This document shows positions 6,411 through 11,214 of a stretch of DNA of 34,673 nt, one piece after another. The first letter of the stretch is position 1. Each line of letters begins with the position of its first letter. A model generated the notes under the pieces. It was not told the DNA's origin. It did not search any database and worked only from the letters and a program-made list of their open reading frames with translations. The stretch is from an uncultured Flavobacteriales bacterium. Its GTDB lineage: Bacteria > Bacteroidota > Bacteroidia > Flavobacteriales_D > Sanyastnellaceae. The stretch spans positions 1 to 34,673 of the forward strand of contig CAJQMI010000019.1 of assembly GCA_905479395.1 (NCBI GenBank), given 5' to 3'. A program made the position numbers and the translations under genes.

Positions 6411-7949
6411 TCACTGAAAGACCAAAAACTGAGGCTCATCCGCGCGCTCGAGTATTTGGCACCAATGATCCGTGAAATCGGACCAATCGCCCACAGCATT
6501 TACCAATGTCAGCGCACTGAGCCTCCGTTCTTGGGGGATCCCGCTAGGAAAAATCCACCCATCATACATTTCAGCAATCTTGGTGCATTGTTCGTGGTGC
6601 TGCTGTTTGATGATTTTTCGCCATTTTTTCTTCACCGCAAATAGCTCCTTCTCCATCTTCGAAAGCGTTGCTCGCGTGGTTGGAAGTGCCGATTCGTGAA
6701 TCCCTTTGGCGTAATTCTCCAAGGCTTCAGACCAACGCTCAAAGTGCAACATCAAATCACCTTCATTCTGCAAGAATTGATCTGCCCAGGCATTGACGGC
6801 ATCTTCTCCACGCAAAATCGGCTTGGTGGGGTTCCACGACATCAACTCACACACTTCGGATGCACCTTCATTCAAAACCAATGCTCCGTCGCGGACCAAA
6901 AGCGCTGGAGGGTGCACATTATGTAGCTCGAATGCATCACCAAGGAGCATCCAATAGCTCACTTCAGAAGGGCCTCCGATGAAAGCGATGCTCTGCAATA
7001 AGAATTCTTGATAGAGCGGACGCAACGCAACATTGGGCGAATTTTGATCTGGACGTAACGACCTCCAGGCTTCTTCTCCATTTGCATCAATCCACCGATC
7101 CGCGCGTTGACGTTTTCCTTCATCCGTTAAAACGAACAAATTGTTGTCCCGAGGCTGAATCTGAACTTCACCTACCTTTTTTTGAAATCGATCTGCAGTT
7201 TTTCGAACAGTGCTTCCAATGCCTTCGTTCTCCCATTCCGCTTGCCACAAGTGCATCGCCATGGCCTTCAATTCAGGGTCATGACCATCGATGACCAAAA
7301 TGTTTAAATGTCCAAACCATTCTGAGACCCATTTGCGCACGCGAGCAGCTAAAGTCATGGTTCGTAAATGCTTTTCTGGGGAAGCGATCTTATTGTCATC
7401 CGCCCAAGCATGCCATGCTCTTTCAGCATGCTCATCCCAAAGCAACTCTCCAACTGGCCCTTTTTGTTCAACACCAGCAGGCTCCCACTTGAAGTCGCCT
7501 CCAACCGTGCCAAACGTGGATTGAATCTCTTCGAAATCATGATCCTCTGAAGCCATCCAGAAAACAGCAACGGCCTTCTCTCCCTCGGCGTTGAGGCGCT
7601 GTGCCCATCGAATTGCCGAAAGAATCTTGTAATGGAAGTAAGCGGGACCACCGCCTGCTTGCAACTGATGTCCCGTGGTCACGACATGAGCCCCTTGTTC
7701 AAAAATATCCAGAGCTCGTGAAACAGGCACCTGATCATTCTCGTATTGCCTGCGCATTGCACTGGCTACACGTTGCCGACGGTCGAGATCAAGTTGCAAA
7801 GGAGCGCGCAATCGTTTCTGAATGCCTGACCAATTGCCTCCCCACCTCCAAAATTGTTGCAGAGATTCAGGACGCTGCGTCCATTCGGAAGCTGGCGAAT
7901 TTGTTTTCAATGCATCCGCCTGAGCGAATTGAGCAGTGGAAAAACTCAT
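6411..7949 (-). CDS. bshC: Bacillithiol biosynthesis cysteine-adding enzyme BshC
   Basis: The 512-residue length and motifs fit BshC: TTGHQLQAGGGPAYFHYK near 91-108 (the GHQ nucleotide-binding-like motif with GGP.Y..YK), VFWMASEDHDFEEI (about 129-142), FIGGPSEVSYWMLLG (about 324-338), and a long C-terminal coiled-coil stretch. BshC joins cysteine to glucosaminyl-malate in the last step of bacillithiol synthesis in the cytoplasm. Its presence suggests this organism uses bacillithiol in place of glutathione. bshA and bshB are not in the window, which is normal in Bacteroidota, where the genes are scattered. It follows the CHU_C surface protein by only 18 bases, so it may be read from the same leftward transcript, although no functional link is obvious. 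Confidence 0.94.
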   Translation of the reverse strand: MSFSTAQFAQADALKTNSPASEWTQRPESLQQFWRWGGNWSGIQKRLRAPLQLDLDRRQRVASAMRRQYENDQVPVSRALDIFEQGAHVVTTGHQLQAGGGPAYFHYKILSAIRWAQRLNAEGEKAVAVFWMASEDHDFEEIQSTFGTVGGDFKWEPAGVEQKGPVGELLWDEHAERAWHAWADDNKIASPEKHLRTMTLAARVRKWVSEWFGHLNILVIDGHDPELKAMAMHLWQAEWENEGIGSTVRKTADRFQKKVGEVQIQPRDNNLFVLTDEGKRQRADRWIDANGEEAWRSLRPDQNSPNVALRPLYQEFLLQSIAFIGGPSEVSYWMLLGDAFELHNVHPPALLVRDGALVLNEGASEVCELMSWNPTKPILRGEDAVNAWADQFLQNEGDLMLHFERWSEALENYAKGIHESALPTTRATLSKMEKELFAVKKKWRKIIKQQHHEQCTKIAEMYDGWIFPSGIPQERRLSALTLVNAVGDWSDFTDHWCQILERADEPQFLVFQ

Positions 7950-7967
7950 GGAAGTATCAAGAAGTGT

Positions 7968-9020
7968 TTAGCGAATCAAAGACAAAGACCCAGATTTGGA
8001 CAACAACTGGCCCTCTGGGTCGATCACGTTTAGGCGCCAAACATAGGAACCGGATTCCAATGGGGCTCCTTCACTGTTTGCTCCATCCCACCCCACATCA
8101 TTGCCTGATCCGGAAAAAATCATTTGGCCCCACCGTGAGTAAACTTCGAACGATTGGATCAAAACATTTTCGCAAACAGGTCCGAACACATCGTTATCGC
8201 CATCTCCGTTGGGGGTAAATGCACTGGGCACAAACCAGTGTGGATCCTCATCCAAATCAACATTGGAAACACTGGGCTTAGCTTCAGGACCGCGAACTGA
8301 ATCATCTTCATCGGACCCCATTTCAGCTGATGGCTCCAAGGAAAAACCATCCACAAAGCAGTAAACTTTGGTCGGGTTTTCGCCGTGTTCCTCGGTCACG
8401 TCTCCTGGCTCATTTCCAAACAAACCCCATGTGAAGTGCGTCCATGGTTCCTGCGCTACAAAATTGAATGAAATCTGCTGCCACTCGCGGTTATAAAAGA
8501 CAGGGGTGTAGTCAAAATGCGGCTCAACGTCAATCGCCCCAACTCCTGGTTGCTCCATCGGACCGTTCGAAAATCGCATTCCCAAACCAGCAAGGCCAAG
8601 TCCCGCATTGGAAAATGCGGTAATCTCACCATTGGTCATATTCAGCGTCATTTGATAGCGCTGTCCAACGATTAGCGCATCACTGAATGAACCGCCCAAG
8701 TATTGTCTGCGACCATCGTTGAGGATGTTGTAAGGTGAAAAACCCGCAATGGCCATCCCTTGAAAAGGCATCACCACAGCGACCGGCGTCTCAGGCAGAT
8801 CTCCTGCGTCAGAGCCGAGAACGTGGAACAAGTCTGGTGCATTTGATGCAGAACTGATGTTAAGCCAATGATCGGCAAGCTCAATCGCTCCTGGCATTGA
8901 CGGGTAGTCATTGACCTGCTCGAAACCACCATTCAGAACCGTCTGGGACGCGCCAAGCATCGAAACTGCCATAAAGCCAAGTCCGACGATTGCTCTCAAA
9001 TGAAGGTGGGTGTTTCGCAT
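7968..9020 (-). CDS. Secreted protein with gliding-motility CHU_C C-terminal domain (T9SS type B)
   Basis: The product is about 350 residues long. It starts with a signal peptide (IVGLGFMAVSMLGASQ, cleavage near residue 25). A middle region (26-230) of about 200 residues begins VLNGGFEQVND and ends with a Phe-Val-Asp-Gly strand; this is the beta-sandwich layout often seen in Bacteroidota surface proteins. An acidic linker (about 233-260) follows. The C-terminal 90 residues carry VPSAFTPNGDGDND, a YSRWG strand, GWDGANSEG and SGSYVWRLN, the complete CHU_C/type B sorting signature that sends proteins through the type IX system to the cell surface. ATG 9020 is preferred over an in-frame GTG at 9029. 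It is the fourth gene of the leftward sigma/anti-sigma block, with a 49-base gap before it. Confidence 0.9.
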   Translation of the reverse strand: MRNTHLHLRAIVGLGFMAVSMLGASQTVLNGGFEQVNDYPSMPGAIELADHWLNISSASNAPDLFHVLGSDAGDLPETPVAVVMPFQGMAIAGFSPYNILNDGRRQYLGGSFSDALIVGQRYQMTLNMTNGEITAFSNAGLGLAGLGMRFSNGPMEQPGVGAIDVEPHFDYTPVFYNREWQQISFNFVAQEPWTHFTWGLFGNEPGDVTEEHGENPTKVYCFVDGFSLEPSAEMGSDEDDSVRGPEAKPSVSNVDLDEDPHWFVPSAFTPNGDGDNDVFGPVCENVLIQSFEVYSRWGQMIFSGSGNDVGWDGANSEGAPLESGSYVWRLNVIDPEGQLLSKSGSLSLIR

Positions 9021-9069
9021 ACTTTTCACAAGATATGAATTTCAAATCAATTCGGTTACAGAATATACT

Positions 9070-10017
9070 TCACAGCTCTGGCTTTACGGTAGCACTTAAT
9101 CCTATTCCAATCCAATGATTTTGAATCGAATTCGGCATGACTTTTACCGAGCCATGGGCGGACCATTTCCAAGCGTTTGACTCAAAGAGTATCCTCCCAA
9201 CTTCCAAACCTGTAACGGGCAGGATTTGCCGAGCATCCGCTGAACGAAGGCGCCATGGGACTCCCCCGATTTCAGGCTTTTCAAGTTGCACACGGTCGAC
9301 CGACTGCCAATTTAGCATTGCGCCGGCGTAAATCCGAACGTTCCATCCCAAACGGTGGGTTAAGGAAAAACCCAACTGCAATGCCGTGGAAAAAACAACG
9401 TTGCGCAGCGCCACCATTGGCACAGTATCCGTTTCGATGCCATTCGAATAACGCTTGTACGTTACGGCTGACCAATCCTGACGTTCGCCTTGGGGAATGA
9501 ATCCGATGACAGAATCTGGAATTTGCAGAAGGTCCATGCCTCCAAATTGTTGCACCAAGAAAAGCACCTGACCATCCATGGTGCAACGCCAACCATTGCG
9601 TTTAAGCCCTCTTGCGTCAAAAGACTTCAGTGGTTTTTGCAGTCCCAAGGATTGGGATGCGTCATATTGACCCGTCCAACCCTTCCAACTCGGCCCCTCC
9701 AATGTCCCTTGGCCAACCCCAAGATGAGTTTCCAATGAAATACCGGTGCTGCTGCGGGACAAGTCCGCATACATTCTGCGAAAAAAGTCTGCAGCGACCC
9801 CCTTGTTTTTGAATCGATTCAAAGAATCAAATTGGACTTGAGCATCGACCAGCACCACGCGGCCATCAACACGAATCGAGTCCCGCACAAGAGGTTCAAG
9901 CCCATGCAACGGCAACGTGGTGCCAAAAGCGACCAAGCAGATTGCTACCGAGGTCACTCGATTGCGCCATCGCTCTTTCGAGCTTTGCCTTGAAATTTGT
10001 TTGTGAAACCGACGCAT
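9070..10017 (-). CDS. Exported hypothetical protein, possibly an outer-membrane barrel
   Basis: I do not recognise a family. The 315-residue product has a long basic N-terminus (1-21), then a hydrophobic segment (VTSVAICLVAFGTTLPLHG, 22-40) that could be a signal peptide. The rest has no transmembrane helix. From about residue 195 it shows alternating-pattern strands with aromatic ends (for example FSTALQLGFSLTHRLGW, VRIYAGAMLNW, KWSAHGSVKV, HWIGIGLSATV), which suggests a small beta-barrel or beta-sandwich in the outer membrane or periplasm. It ends 49 bases before the CHU_C gene and starts 12 bases after the probable anti-sigma gene, so it is surely co-transcribed with them. A typical role in such blocks is as an envelope target or sensor of the sigma factor, but that is inference. 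Confidence 0.7.
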   Translation of the reverse strand: MRRFHKQISRQSSKERWRNRVTSVAICLVAFGTTLPLHGLEPLVRDSIRVDGRVVLVDAQVQFDSLNRFKNKGVAADFFRRMYADLSRSSTGISLETHLGVGQGTLEGPSWKGWTGQYDASQSLGLQKPLKSFDARGLKRNGWRCTMDGQVLFLVQQFGGMDLLQIPDSVIGFIPQGERQDWSAVTYKRYSNGIETDTVPMVALRNVVFSTALQLGFSLTHRLGWNVRIYAGAMLNWQSVDRVQLEKPEIGGVPWRLRSADARQILPVTGLEVGRILFESNAWKWSAHGSVKVMPNSIQNHWIGIGLSATVKPEL

Positions 10018-10029
10018 TGCCGGTGCAAA

Positions 10030-10581
10030 TTAGTCTTTGACCTTCACAACGGCAGGCATTACCCATCTTTCCTCTTCCGCCTCACGCAAGGCCTTGTCGG
10101 ACATGGCATGAGATGCGGGTGAAGCTGGCAAAACATCAATCGGCTCCAATGCACCCTTGCGATCACCTTGCTGGACTTCTGCTGGCTGAGCGTTTGTCAT
10201 TGCCGGAGCCGCCAAACGTGAATCGGAAGGCGCCTCCACCGAAGGAATCGCTTCTGATTGATTTGACTCCATCGGCTCTTCATTCGCAATTACCGGCATT
10301 TCATTGGCCAACTCATCGGCATCTAAAGCGGATAAGTCAGCTGGATTTGCTTCTACTTGTTCGGAATTTGAAAAGGCAACTTCAGGATTTTCGAACAACG
10401 TGGCACTCCCCCAGTATGCGAAACAAACCAGGGCAACGGAACCGAAAATCCGAGCTCGACGTTTGCGAGATCGGATTTTGTCCATGCGTTCAAACAAGGC
10501 GTTTTCAGCGCCTTTTGGCGGCTGAATCGCCTCATCTGCGAACATCCCTTTTACGTATTGATCCACTTTATTGATTCCCAT
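10030..10581 (-). CDS. Probable membrane-anchored anti-sigma factor
   Basis: The 183-residue protein has a short N-terminal cytoplasmic part (1-44) with KVDQYVKGMFADE and a basic RSRKRRAR stop. One transmembrane helix follows at about 45-62 (IFGSVALVCFAYWGSATLF), then an acidic, Pro/Ala/Ser-rich periplasmic tail of about 120 residues. The start overlaps the end of the ECF sigma gene by 14 bases, the usual layout of a sigma/anti-sigma pair. I see no zinc-binding anti-sigma motif (HxxxCxxC) and no FecR domain, so it would be a non-canonical member. The cytoplasmic N-terminus would hold the sigma factor and the tail would sense the envelope. ATG 10581 is chosen; an in-frame GTG lies one codon before. 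Confidence 0.65.
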   Translation of the reverse strand: MGINKVDQYVKGMFADEAIQPPKGAENALFERMDKIRSRKRRARIFGSVALVCFAYWGSATLFENPEVAFSNSEQVEANPADLSALDADELANEMPVIANEEPMESNQSEAIPSVEAPSDSRLAAPAMTNAQPAEVQQGDRKGALEPIDVLPASPASHAMSDKALREAEEERWVMPAVVKVKD

Positions 10582-11134
10582 CACTCTTTTTAGCTATTCG
10601 TGCCATGTTGATCAATGTCCCCTGAAGCGCTCGACGCGCTCGGCTCAATTGACTTTTCGAAGTGTTCACATCGATGCCCAGCGTTTCCGCTATCTCCTTG
10701 TGCTTGAACCCTTCTATGACATACATTTTAAACACTGTTGCGTAACCCTTCGGCAACGCATTTATGGCCTTTTCGATTTCTTCTTTGTTGTAGTCTGTTT
10801 CTTTGAACGCTTCCAAGTCCTTAGGGGTTGCATAGACCTCGTCAATATCAACGTGATACGTGTGTTTTTTTTGCCTTCGGTAGTGGGTAATTGCCGTGTT
10901 TACCACAATTCGTCGCAACCAACCTTCGAAACTATTGTTTTCACTGAAAGACTTGAGGTAACGAAAAACCTTGACCCAAGCGTCTTGAGCAATGTCTTCG
11001 GCATCGTGGCGGGTGTTGGAATAGCGCAGTGCCACTGCAAATAAGAGTGGGCTGTAACGACTATAAAGACGACGCTGCGCATCAGCATGACCTTTCTTAC
11101 ATCGTTCAATCAATTCTACTTCTTCCGAATCCAT
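10568..11134 (-). CDS. ECF-type RNA polymerase sigma factor
   Basis: The 188-residue product has both sigma regions of the ECF class. Region 2 spans about residues 10-88, with DAEDIAQDAWVKVF (44-57) for core and -10 contacts and SFEGWLRRIVVNTAITHYRR after it. Region 4 spans about 120-172, with LPKGYATVFKMYVIEGFKHKEIAE, where the helix-turn-helix helix is NTSKSQLSRARRAL. Region 3 is absent, as in all ECF factors. The gene starts the leftward block that continues into the anti-sigma gene (14-base overlap). The TATGTTTA at 11155-11162 fits a -7 box, so the block may be read by the main sigma factor, with extra self-activation possible. There is about 80 bases between it and the ACMSD-like gene upstream. 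Confidence 0.95.
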   Translation of the reverse strand: MDSEEVELIERCKKGHADAQRRLYSRYSPLLFAVALRYSNTRHDAEDIAQDAWVKVFRYLKSFSENNSFEGWLRRIVVNTAITHYRRQKKHTYHVDIDEVYATPKDLEAFKETDYNKEEIEKAINALPKGYATVFKMYVIEGFKHKEIAETLGIDVNTSKSQLSRARRALQGTLINMARIAKKSDGNQ

Positions 11135-11154
11135 CCACGGGTGCTTCTACGATT

Positions 11155-11162
11155 TAAACATA
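11155..11162 (-). promoter_or_regulatory. Putative -7 box (TATGTTTA) before the sigma factor gene
   Basis: On the minus strand TATGTTTA fits TAnnTTTA. It lies 20 bases before the ATG at 11134, which would leave a leader of roughly 17 bases, longer than for the other genes of this window. No -33 element is clear. The space to the upstream gene's stop (11215) is only 80 bases and holds no strong terminator. Confidence 0.3.
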
Positions 11163-11214
11163 AACACGAACCAAAGGGTTGCTCGGAGATTTCGAGTTTT
11201 AGGCGCTTTGACCA

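Follow-up and report, generated by a model that had tools for sequence, protein, structure and literature searches.

The closest described systems to the locus reported here, judged from the available parts of the two papers, are the Dma anti-sigma factors of Bacteroides (PMC13088901) and a barrel-tailed sigma/anti-sigma pair of Phocaeicola vulgatus (PMC9308784). A Dma protein is encoded next to an extracytoplasmic function (ECF) sigma factor gene and joins, in one chain, an N-terminal anti-sigma part, one membrane helix, a long disordered tether and an outer-membrane barrel. The Phocaeicola anti-sigma factor is also one chain, predicted to span the periplasm and ending in a C-terminal barrel; its pair responds to envelope stress, and activation lengthens the O-antigen of lipopolysaccharide and partly protects from toxins. 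Here we describe a four-gene block in a 34,673-nt stretch of DNA (the window; contig CAJQMI010000019.1, assembly GCA_905479395.1) from the 2.29-Mb draft genome of an uncultured Flavobacteriales bacterium of the family Sanyastnellaceae, whose members are mostly uncultured. The block has a similar set of parts, an ECF sigma gene followed by an anti-sigma-like gene with one helix and a long tether and by a predicted barrel, but here the barrel is a separate gene, 12 nt past the anti-sigma-like gene. Further differences from Dma are an added gene for a type B protein of the type IX secretion system (T9SS), an added bshC gene, and a predicted regulon of T9SS cargo instead of vesiculation or polysaccharide utilization genes. 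Since the block fails the one-chain feature, we call it a split variant and not a Dma; by analogy, it probably works like one. Our reading, to which we assign a probability of roughly 55%, is that it encodes a trans-envelope sigma circuit with autoregulation, related to Dma but split, that would drive genes for T9SS cargo.

Two other systems connect ECF sigma factors with the T9SS in the available parts of their descriptions. In Porphyromonas, PorXY-SigP and the T9SS protein PorA (PMC7712824, PMC4800418) tie an ECF sigma factor to T9SS genes and place a surface protein with a C-terminal domain (CTD) upstream of its activity. Unlike the case proposed here, a two-component system drives SigP, its motif is different, its targets are T9SS component genes, and the term anti-sigma is absent from PMC4800418. 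ECF-type promoters named SM6 in F. psychrophilum (PMC9723704) also precede T9SS genes and a sigma/anti-sigma pair, but the genes named in the available text include T9SS components and no cargo regulon is described in it. In the open-licence literature that we searched, we found no description of an anti-sigma factor with a T9SS sorting domain, nor of a sigma-factor regulon of T9SS cargo. The block is a concrete candidate for the way in which Bacteroidota adjust their output of T9SS surface proteins to the condition of the secretion machinery. It offers a sigma factor for which both a promoter and a cargo regulon are predicted, and an anti-sigma-like protein that could signal the state of the outer membrane.

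All four genes lie on the minus strand. The sigma gene (10568..11134, 188 aa) overlaps gene 2 (10030..10581, 183 aa) by 14 nt, and gaps of 12 and 49 nt separate gene 2 from gene 3 (9070..10017, 315 aa) and gene 3 from gene 4 (7968..9020, 350 aa). The sigma protein matches Sigma70_r2 (PF04542, 6e-20) and Sigma70_r4_2 (PF08281, 1e-17) in Pfam and TIGR02937 in NCBIfam (109.6 bits, cut-off 42.9); with sigma70 regions 2 and 4 only, in about 190 residues, it is an ECF sigma factor. Gene 4 has a signal peptide, read from the sequence, and a CHU_C domain (PF13585) at residues 264-346 (7983..8231, minus strand; 2.4e-13, 50.4 bits, cut-off 27), with TIGR04131 also over its cut-off (43.1 bits against 35); an exported protein with this C-terminal domain is T9SS type B cargo. 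Genes 2 and 3 gave no Pfam match at E 1, and only chance-level matches in NCBIfam. An earlier note, made from the sequence of this DNA, had set out this arrangement as a possible cell-surface signalling unit, and its interpretation is partly supported. Its coordinates and spacings are exact when ATG starts are taken, and it was right that the second gene has one membrane helix and no known anti-sigma domain and that the fourth encodes a T9SS type B surface protein. The third gene, which it called exported and unrecognised, is exported and lacks a Pfam match, yet its product is predicted to be a small outer-membrane barrel. A signalling system of the FecI-FecR-FecA kind was considered and rejected, with no FecR in gene 2 and no TonB-dependent receptor among the nine block and neighbour proteins scanned against Pfam.

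We infer a chain of events from binding to signal, as follows. The ECF sigma factor would be held at the inner membrane by gene 2, whose tether of about 100 residues would be long enough to span the periplasm. Its conserved, strand-like C-terminal end would dock at the outer membrane, with the gene 3 barrel as its most likely partner; reaching an outer-membrane barrel that is a separate gene would make it the split counterpart of Bacteroides Dma. A change of state at the outer-membrane end, through assembly stress or through the traffic or jamming of T9SS cargo, would release the sigma factor, which would then turn on transcription of the operon that encodes it and of a small group of T9SS cargo genes. 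Gene 4 would be co-expressed type B cargo, possibly a reporter of secretion.

The proposed autoregulation and regulon come from a promoter box. A predicted ECF promoter, GCAACC-N17-GTTTAA (11154..11182, minus strand; pattern match), stands 19 nt 5' of the sigma start codon, and the pattern GCAACC-N17-GTYTWW matches the window only here, with 0.02 matches expected. The box was first spotted by eye and its -10 part was partly picked by fit, so the shorter rule GCAACC-N17-GT is the fairer test. This rule, applied to the window and 58 further family loci, finds a box 5' of the sigma gene in 43 of the 59, against 0.22 on average when the 59 upstream regions are shuffled by single bases, and 0 to 6 of 59 at other spacers from 10 to 25. 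In ten genomes, GCAACC-N17-GTYTWW gave 67 matches and its version with a 13-nt spacer 12. Among the 67 sites, 8 precede the block's sigma gene (7 by profile, 1 by coordinates) and 20 precede, at 3-51 nt, an open reading frame (ORF) with a C-terminal CHU_C domain (19 in their own locus, 1 via an identical site); six of these 20 proteins were put to Pfam and all six were over the CHU_C cut-off. A further 5 sites precede proteins with a type A sorting domain over cut-off, 2 precede cut ORFs resembling T9SS sorting-domain proteins, 1 precedes a GldJ-like gene (TIGR03524, 436.6 bits, cut-off 458.2) and 5 precede a lipoprotein family. At spacer 13, no CHU_C ORF lies within 60 nt of any of the 12 sites (in one case it is 83 nt away and a longer frame encloses the site), which gives a Fisher P of 0.03 for 20/67 against 0/12; the rough chance expectation before CHU_C genes is 0.04 of 67, assuming 65 CHU_C genes per genome. 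In these counts, orthologous sites in sister species are not independent, and in each of the pairs R38/R63, R0/R8, R39/R57 and R42/R60 the two sites have the same 29-mer and a single genome was read. In the window's genus, 26 of 32 boxes were read: 6 stand before the sigma gene and 5 lie 23-55 nt ahead of exported proteins. All five of these proteins end in T9SS-type domains, four of them over cut-off and one (L459) below. The earlier note's suggestion that the sigma factor controls secreted surface proteins has thus gained evidence, since a predicted sigma promoter precedes both the sigma gene and T9SS cargo genes. Members of the lipoprotein family carry CLN(D/E)(D/E)NKIP at the mature start and are found behind the sigma box in L335, L338, L339, L373 and, by an identical site, in a fifth genome; the one member scanned had no NCBIfam match.

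To ask how far the arrangement extends, we sampled 60 regions from 59 genomes in 18 genera of the family (genome G048 was taken twice). The sigma gene is followed by the gene 4 (CHU_C) orthologue, on one strand and in the same order, in 58 of the 60. In 55 of these 58 regions at least two ORFs of at least 150 aa were called between them (not in L141, L150 and L166), and in 55, bshC follows 3' on the same strand (not in L117, L124 and L150). The existence of the four-gene block is confirmed, and its arrangement is beyond chance. The note had overlooked bshC, the bacillithiol synthase gene, as part of the conserved stretch; in the window (6411..7949, minus strand; PF10079 at 1e-53, TIGR03998 under its cut-off) it begins 18 nt past gene 4 and is followed by the gene for a HAD-type protein. 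Sigma matches of 1e-40 or better occur in 101 of 114 family genomes (21 genera), and gene 4 matches at 1e-3 in all 114, a figure that includes paralogues via the CHU_C domain. Genes 2 and 3 were each matched by plain sequence in only 23 of the 114, 21 of the 23 being in the window's genus in both cases, so that position and profiles are needed to find their homologues across the family. Their positional equivalents are a ~160-240 aa protein, in which a helix was often called close to residue 46, and then an exported protein of ~270-340 aa; given the two or more intervening ORFs in 55 of 58 regions, genes 2 and 3 are fast-changing genes kept by position. A wider comparison took in 299 genomes of the order, of which 71 belong to the family. 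Scores for the sigma orthologue reach 5.3e-81 or better in 70 of these 71 and 7e-48 in the remaining one, G071; the best score outside the family is 3e-64. The conserved N-terminal domain of gene 4 scores 1.2e-66 or better in 66 of the 71 and at best 1.4e-56 outside, where eight gene 4-like places score 1e-56 to 1e-47.

We also examined layouts around related sigma genes, in 80 named relatives (the best 80 of 590 candidates) and 29 loci from a phylum search, whose thirtieth locus was the window and was left out. Twenty of these 109 loci belong to the family. In the 89 outside it, the gene after the sigma gene is anti-sigma-like with a separate barrel gene behind it in 36 (split loci), carries a fused barrel in 12 and ends in a fused CHU_C domain in 10; the remainder are 10 long and 19 other proteins and 2 loci without such a gene. 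The CHU_C and gene 2 profiles for this survey were built from the window's family only, the latter from 54 proteins, and the barrel profiles from 7 of the 12 fused and 11 of the 36 split loci, so that these loci were bound to match. In 66 of the 89 loci the gene directly behind the sigma gene is matched by the gene 2 profile; in barrel-fused proteins the match lies in the N-terminal part. Over-cut-off matches to OMP_b-brl_2 in Pfam were found in the fused proteins of L206, L217 and L225 and in the split barrel of L213, and L197 has an OMP_b-brl match under cut-off. Of the ten CHU_C-tailed proteins, one (L220) is cut by a contig end; TIGR04131 is over cut-off in six of the nine scanned (L199, L201, L203, L222, L236 and L244) and below it in L192, L242 and L275. 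The gene 2 profile matches seven of the ten (not L199, L242 and L275), and a membrane helix was called in nine (not L192). These ten loci, where the protein after a related sigma factor ends in a T9SS type B domain, support the link between sigma factor and surface protein. The Dma idea of one chain through both membranes is in this way extended to versions made of two or three genes, and further to anti-sigma-like proteins that end in a T9SS sorting domain; the tailed and split versions make T9SS sensing directly testable in cultured relatives; L203 is Acidiluteibacter ferrifornacis. A tree was built from 119 sigma proteins, and in it the family comes out as a single clade (support 99/97). 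The supported clade that encloses it takes in two more sequences, L192, from a locus labelled Chlorobiota, and L234, where the gene after sigma is incomplete. Another layout, several of whose loci are in Chitinophagaceae, also recurs, with the sigma gene followed by a ~260-335 aa protein with a helix at residue 66-143 and then by a ~140-151 aa gene (L208, L209, L229, L231, L239, L240, L257, L258, L267 and L270).

The conserved gene set thus looks like a signalling line across both membranes that switches on surface proteins. It could, however, be two units that share an address, a sigma-gene 2-gene 3 circuit for envelope stress and a conserved CHU_C-bshC pair, with gene 4 taking no part in the signal. 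We regard this as somewhat unlikely, although it survives best among the alternatives. The exception in the family, G048 (a genome of two contigs), splits exactly between gene 3 and the CHU_C gene: CHU_C and bshC are paired there without a sigma gene, and sigma (3.6e-96), gene 2 (4.7e-32) and gene 3 (3.4e-56) sit jointly elsewhere, so that the two parts are separable. The note had taken free separation of the four genes as grounds for giving up the unit; the order is kept in 58 of 60 regions, and the block is divisible in this one genome. Two units would also fit the extra 1.5-1.7 kb between genes 3 and 4 in G050 and G016, the RNA- or terminator-like element found at that place in 17 of 60 regions and before the CHU_C gene in G048 (see below), the CHU_C-bshC pairing in 55 of 58 regions, and the lack of a CHU_C-type ORF, in the stretch examined, at 35 of the 36 split loci outside the family. 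Against it are the joint retention of all genes in those 58 regions, the proteins in which a gene 2-like N-terminus and a CHU_C domain form one chain (L192 lies beside the family sigma clade, with a CHU_C tail below both cut-offs, at 25.5 against 27 in Pfam and 20.6 against 35 in NCBIfam), a box of its own, GCAACC-N17-GTCATA, before gene 4 of L145 and L148, and the cargo genes behind the sigma box. The extra DNA in G050 (L115) and G016 (L129) holds several ORFs, and the CHU_C-bshC pair corresponds to 6411-9020 of the window.

A more ambitious version of the trans-envelope circuit, which we put forward tentatively and with less than even odds, is that it monitors type IX secretion itself, as a loop between cargo supply and secretion capacity. 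This is suggested by the 10 of 89 loci where the protein after the sigma factor has an anti-sigma-like N-terminus and carries its own T9SS type B domain; with that domain, its C-terminus could pass through the T9SS to the surface while its N-terminus holds the sigma factor in the cytoplasm. In the window's family the anti-sigma with its tether, the barrel and the type B domain would then be separate neighbouring genes, and the sigma factor would drive T9SS cargo genes.

Gene 2 consists of a short N-terminal region, one helix at about residues 44-62 (10396..10452, minus strand; read from sequence, and near residue 46 in many relatives), a low-complexity tether, 74% P/A/E/S/T/Q/D/N/G and judged disordered from composition alone, and a strand-like C-terminal end. 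We take it to be an anti-sigma-like protein that may bind the sigma factor. Among 16 proteins of the genus, its last 12 residues (10033..10068, minus strand) have a mean ungapped pairwise identity of 0.68, against 0.41 for 32 N-terminal residues and 0.34 for the tether, the last with free gapping, which inflates the figure. For gene 3, an AlphaFold2 model from 17 sequences (pLDDT 70.3, pTM 0.59, 97 residues at 90 or above) has eight long strands, mostly of high confidence, and two short ones in its barrel region, with weak loops and N-terminus. Its matches in Foldseek (best E 6e-5; TM-scores, scaled to the model length, no higher than 0.4) and VIA-align (PagL on top, with Z 15.9 and an rmsd of 2.3 over 131 residues) point to small outer-membrane barrels, PagL, OmpA, NspA and OprF being examples, and the fold is predicted to be of this kind.

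RseA has a one-helix anti-sigma layout. Gene 2 shares it and could likewise be cut by regulated proteolysis on outer-membrane stress, without any link between its C-terminus and the barrel, gene 3 being then a regulated product only. The induction of the Phocaeicola barrel-tailed pair by a toxin and a BamA inhibitor, as given in the available part of PMC9308784, would agree with this. We think it unlikely, with the last 12 residues of gene 2 more conserved than its N-terminal region and with fused homologues that carry tether and barrel in one chain.

Several results weigh against the split-Dma circuit or its regulon. In the ten genomes the reversed pattern gave 50 matches against 67, and many boxes may be chance; the reversed control likewise gave 50 at spacer 13, against 12, which makes it a biased yardstick. 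In 12 genomes of the window's genus GCAACC-N17-GTTTNA gave 32 matches against 47 reversed, so that there is no overall excess of boxes there. Another 12 of the 67 sites stand before ORFs of other kinds, and 14 have no ORF of at least 100 aa behind them. For 7 of the 20 CHU_C genes the frame continues open across the box, and the placing of the start codon depends on the signal peptide. The window's gene 4 lacks a GCAACC-N17-GTYTWW box of its own and its structure model is poor (pLDDT 62.5). In a relaxed search, the profile of gene 3 matched the barrel region of fused proteins only weakly (E 2e-3 to 9). Also, GCAAC alone is common before related sigma genes and precedes the sigma gene in 35 of 35 split loci; the full GCAACC-N17-GT rule holds in 12 of 20 named family loci, 2 of 10 CHU_C-tailed, 3 of 35 split and 0 of 12 barrel-fused loci. 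This spread of GCAAC outside the family, together with related sigma paralogues in these genomes, would agree with a reading in which another sigma factor uses the box before the cargo genes and the block merely shares it. We judge this rather improbable, as the sigma genes directly behind the box in the ten genomes are the block's own in 8 of 8 cases.

The weakest alternative makes gene 3 a PorP/SprF-like anchor for the gene 4 protein instead of a partner of gene 2, as would suit a type B domain gene adjoining a barrel gene (type B CTD proteins bind PorP-like barrels and sprF adjoins sprB, with SprB/SprF and PG1035/PorP as the pairs in the available part of PMC9143113), and it is very improbable, because such anchors are 14-stranded FadL-type barrels and gene 3 is modelled with eight long strands, because gene 3 stays with sigma and gene 2, not with gene 4, where the block is split in G048, and because barrels follow anti-sigma-like genes in the 36 split loci, of which 35, including Pedobacter and Roseivirga, show no CHU_C-type ORF in the stretch examined. 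FadL-type and PorP-like structures were absent among the 50 VIA-align matches listed for gene 3, and FadL chains appeared in Foldseek only at E 2e-3 or worse.

Finally, relatives of the window share a conserved non-coding element, ~130 nt long, whose core AGTTGTTTTGGTTAAGGT is invariant. It lies between genes 3 and 4 in 17 of 60 regions (for example L134:4363-4497) and before the CHU_C gene of G048 (L146:3565-3699), making 18 of 60; it is not in the window's 49-nt gap. Seven loci compared with Rfam gave nothing at gathering score and two matches far below it. In the 299 genomes it has 21 strong matches, all at 1.9e-13 or better. It stands 40-260 nt 5' of a CHU_C gene in 19 of 20 comparable places, and also at a second CHU_C copy in G084; in G047 and G049 it is on the opposite strand. 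Its hairpin is terminator-like, with compensatory changes in 12 of 12 pairs, and the element is possibly a new small RNA.

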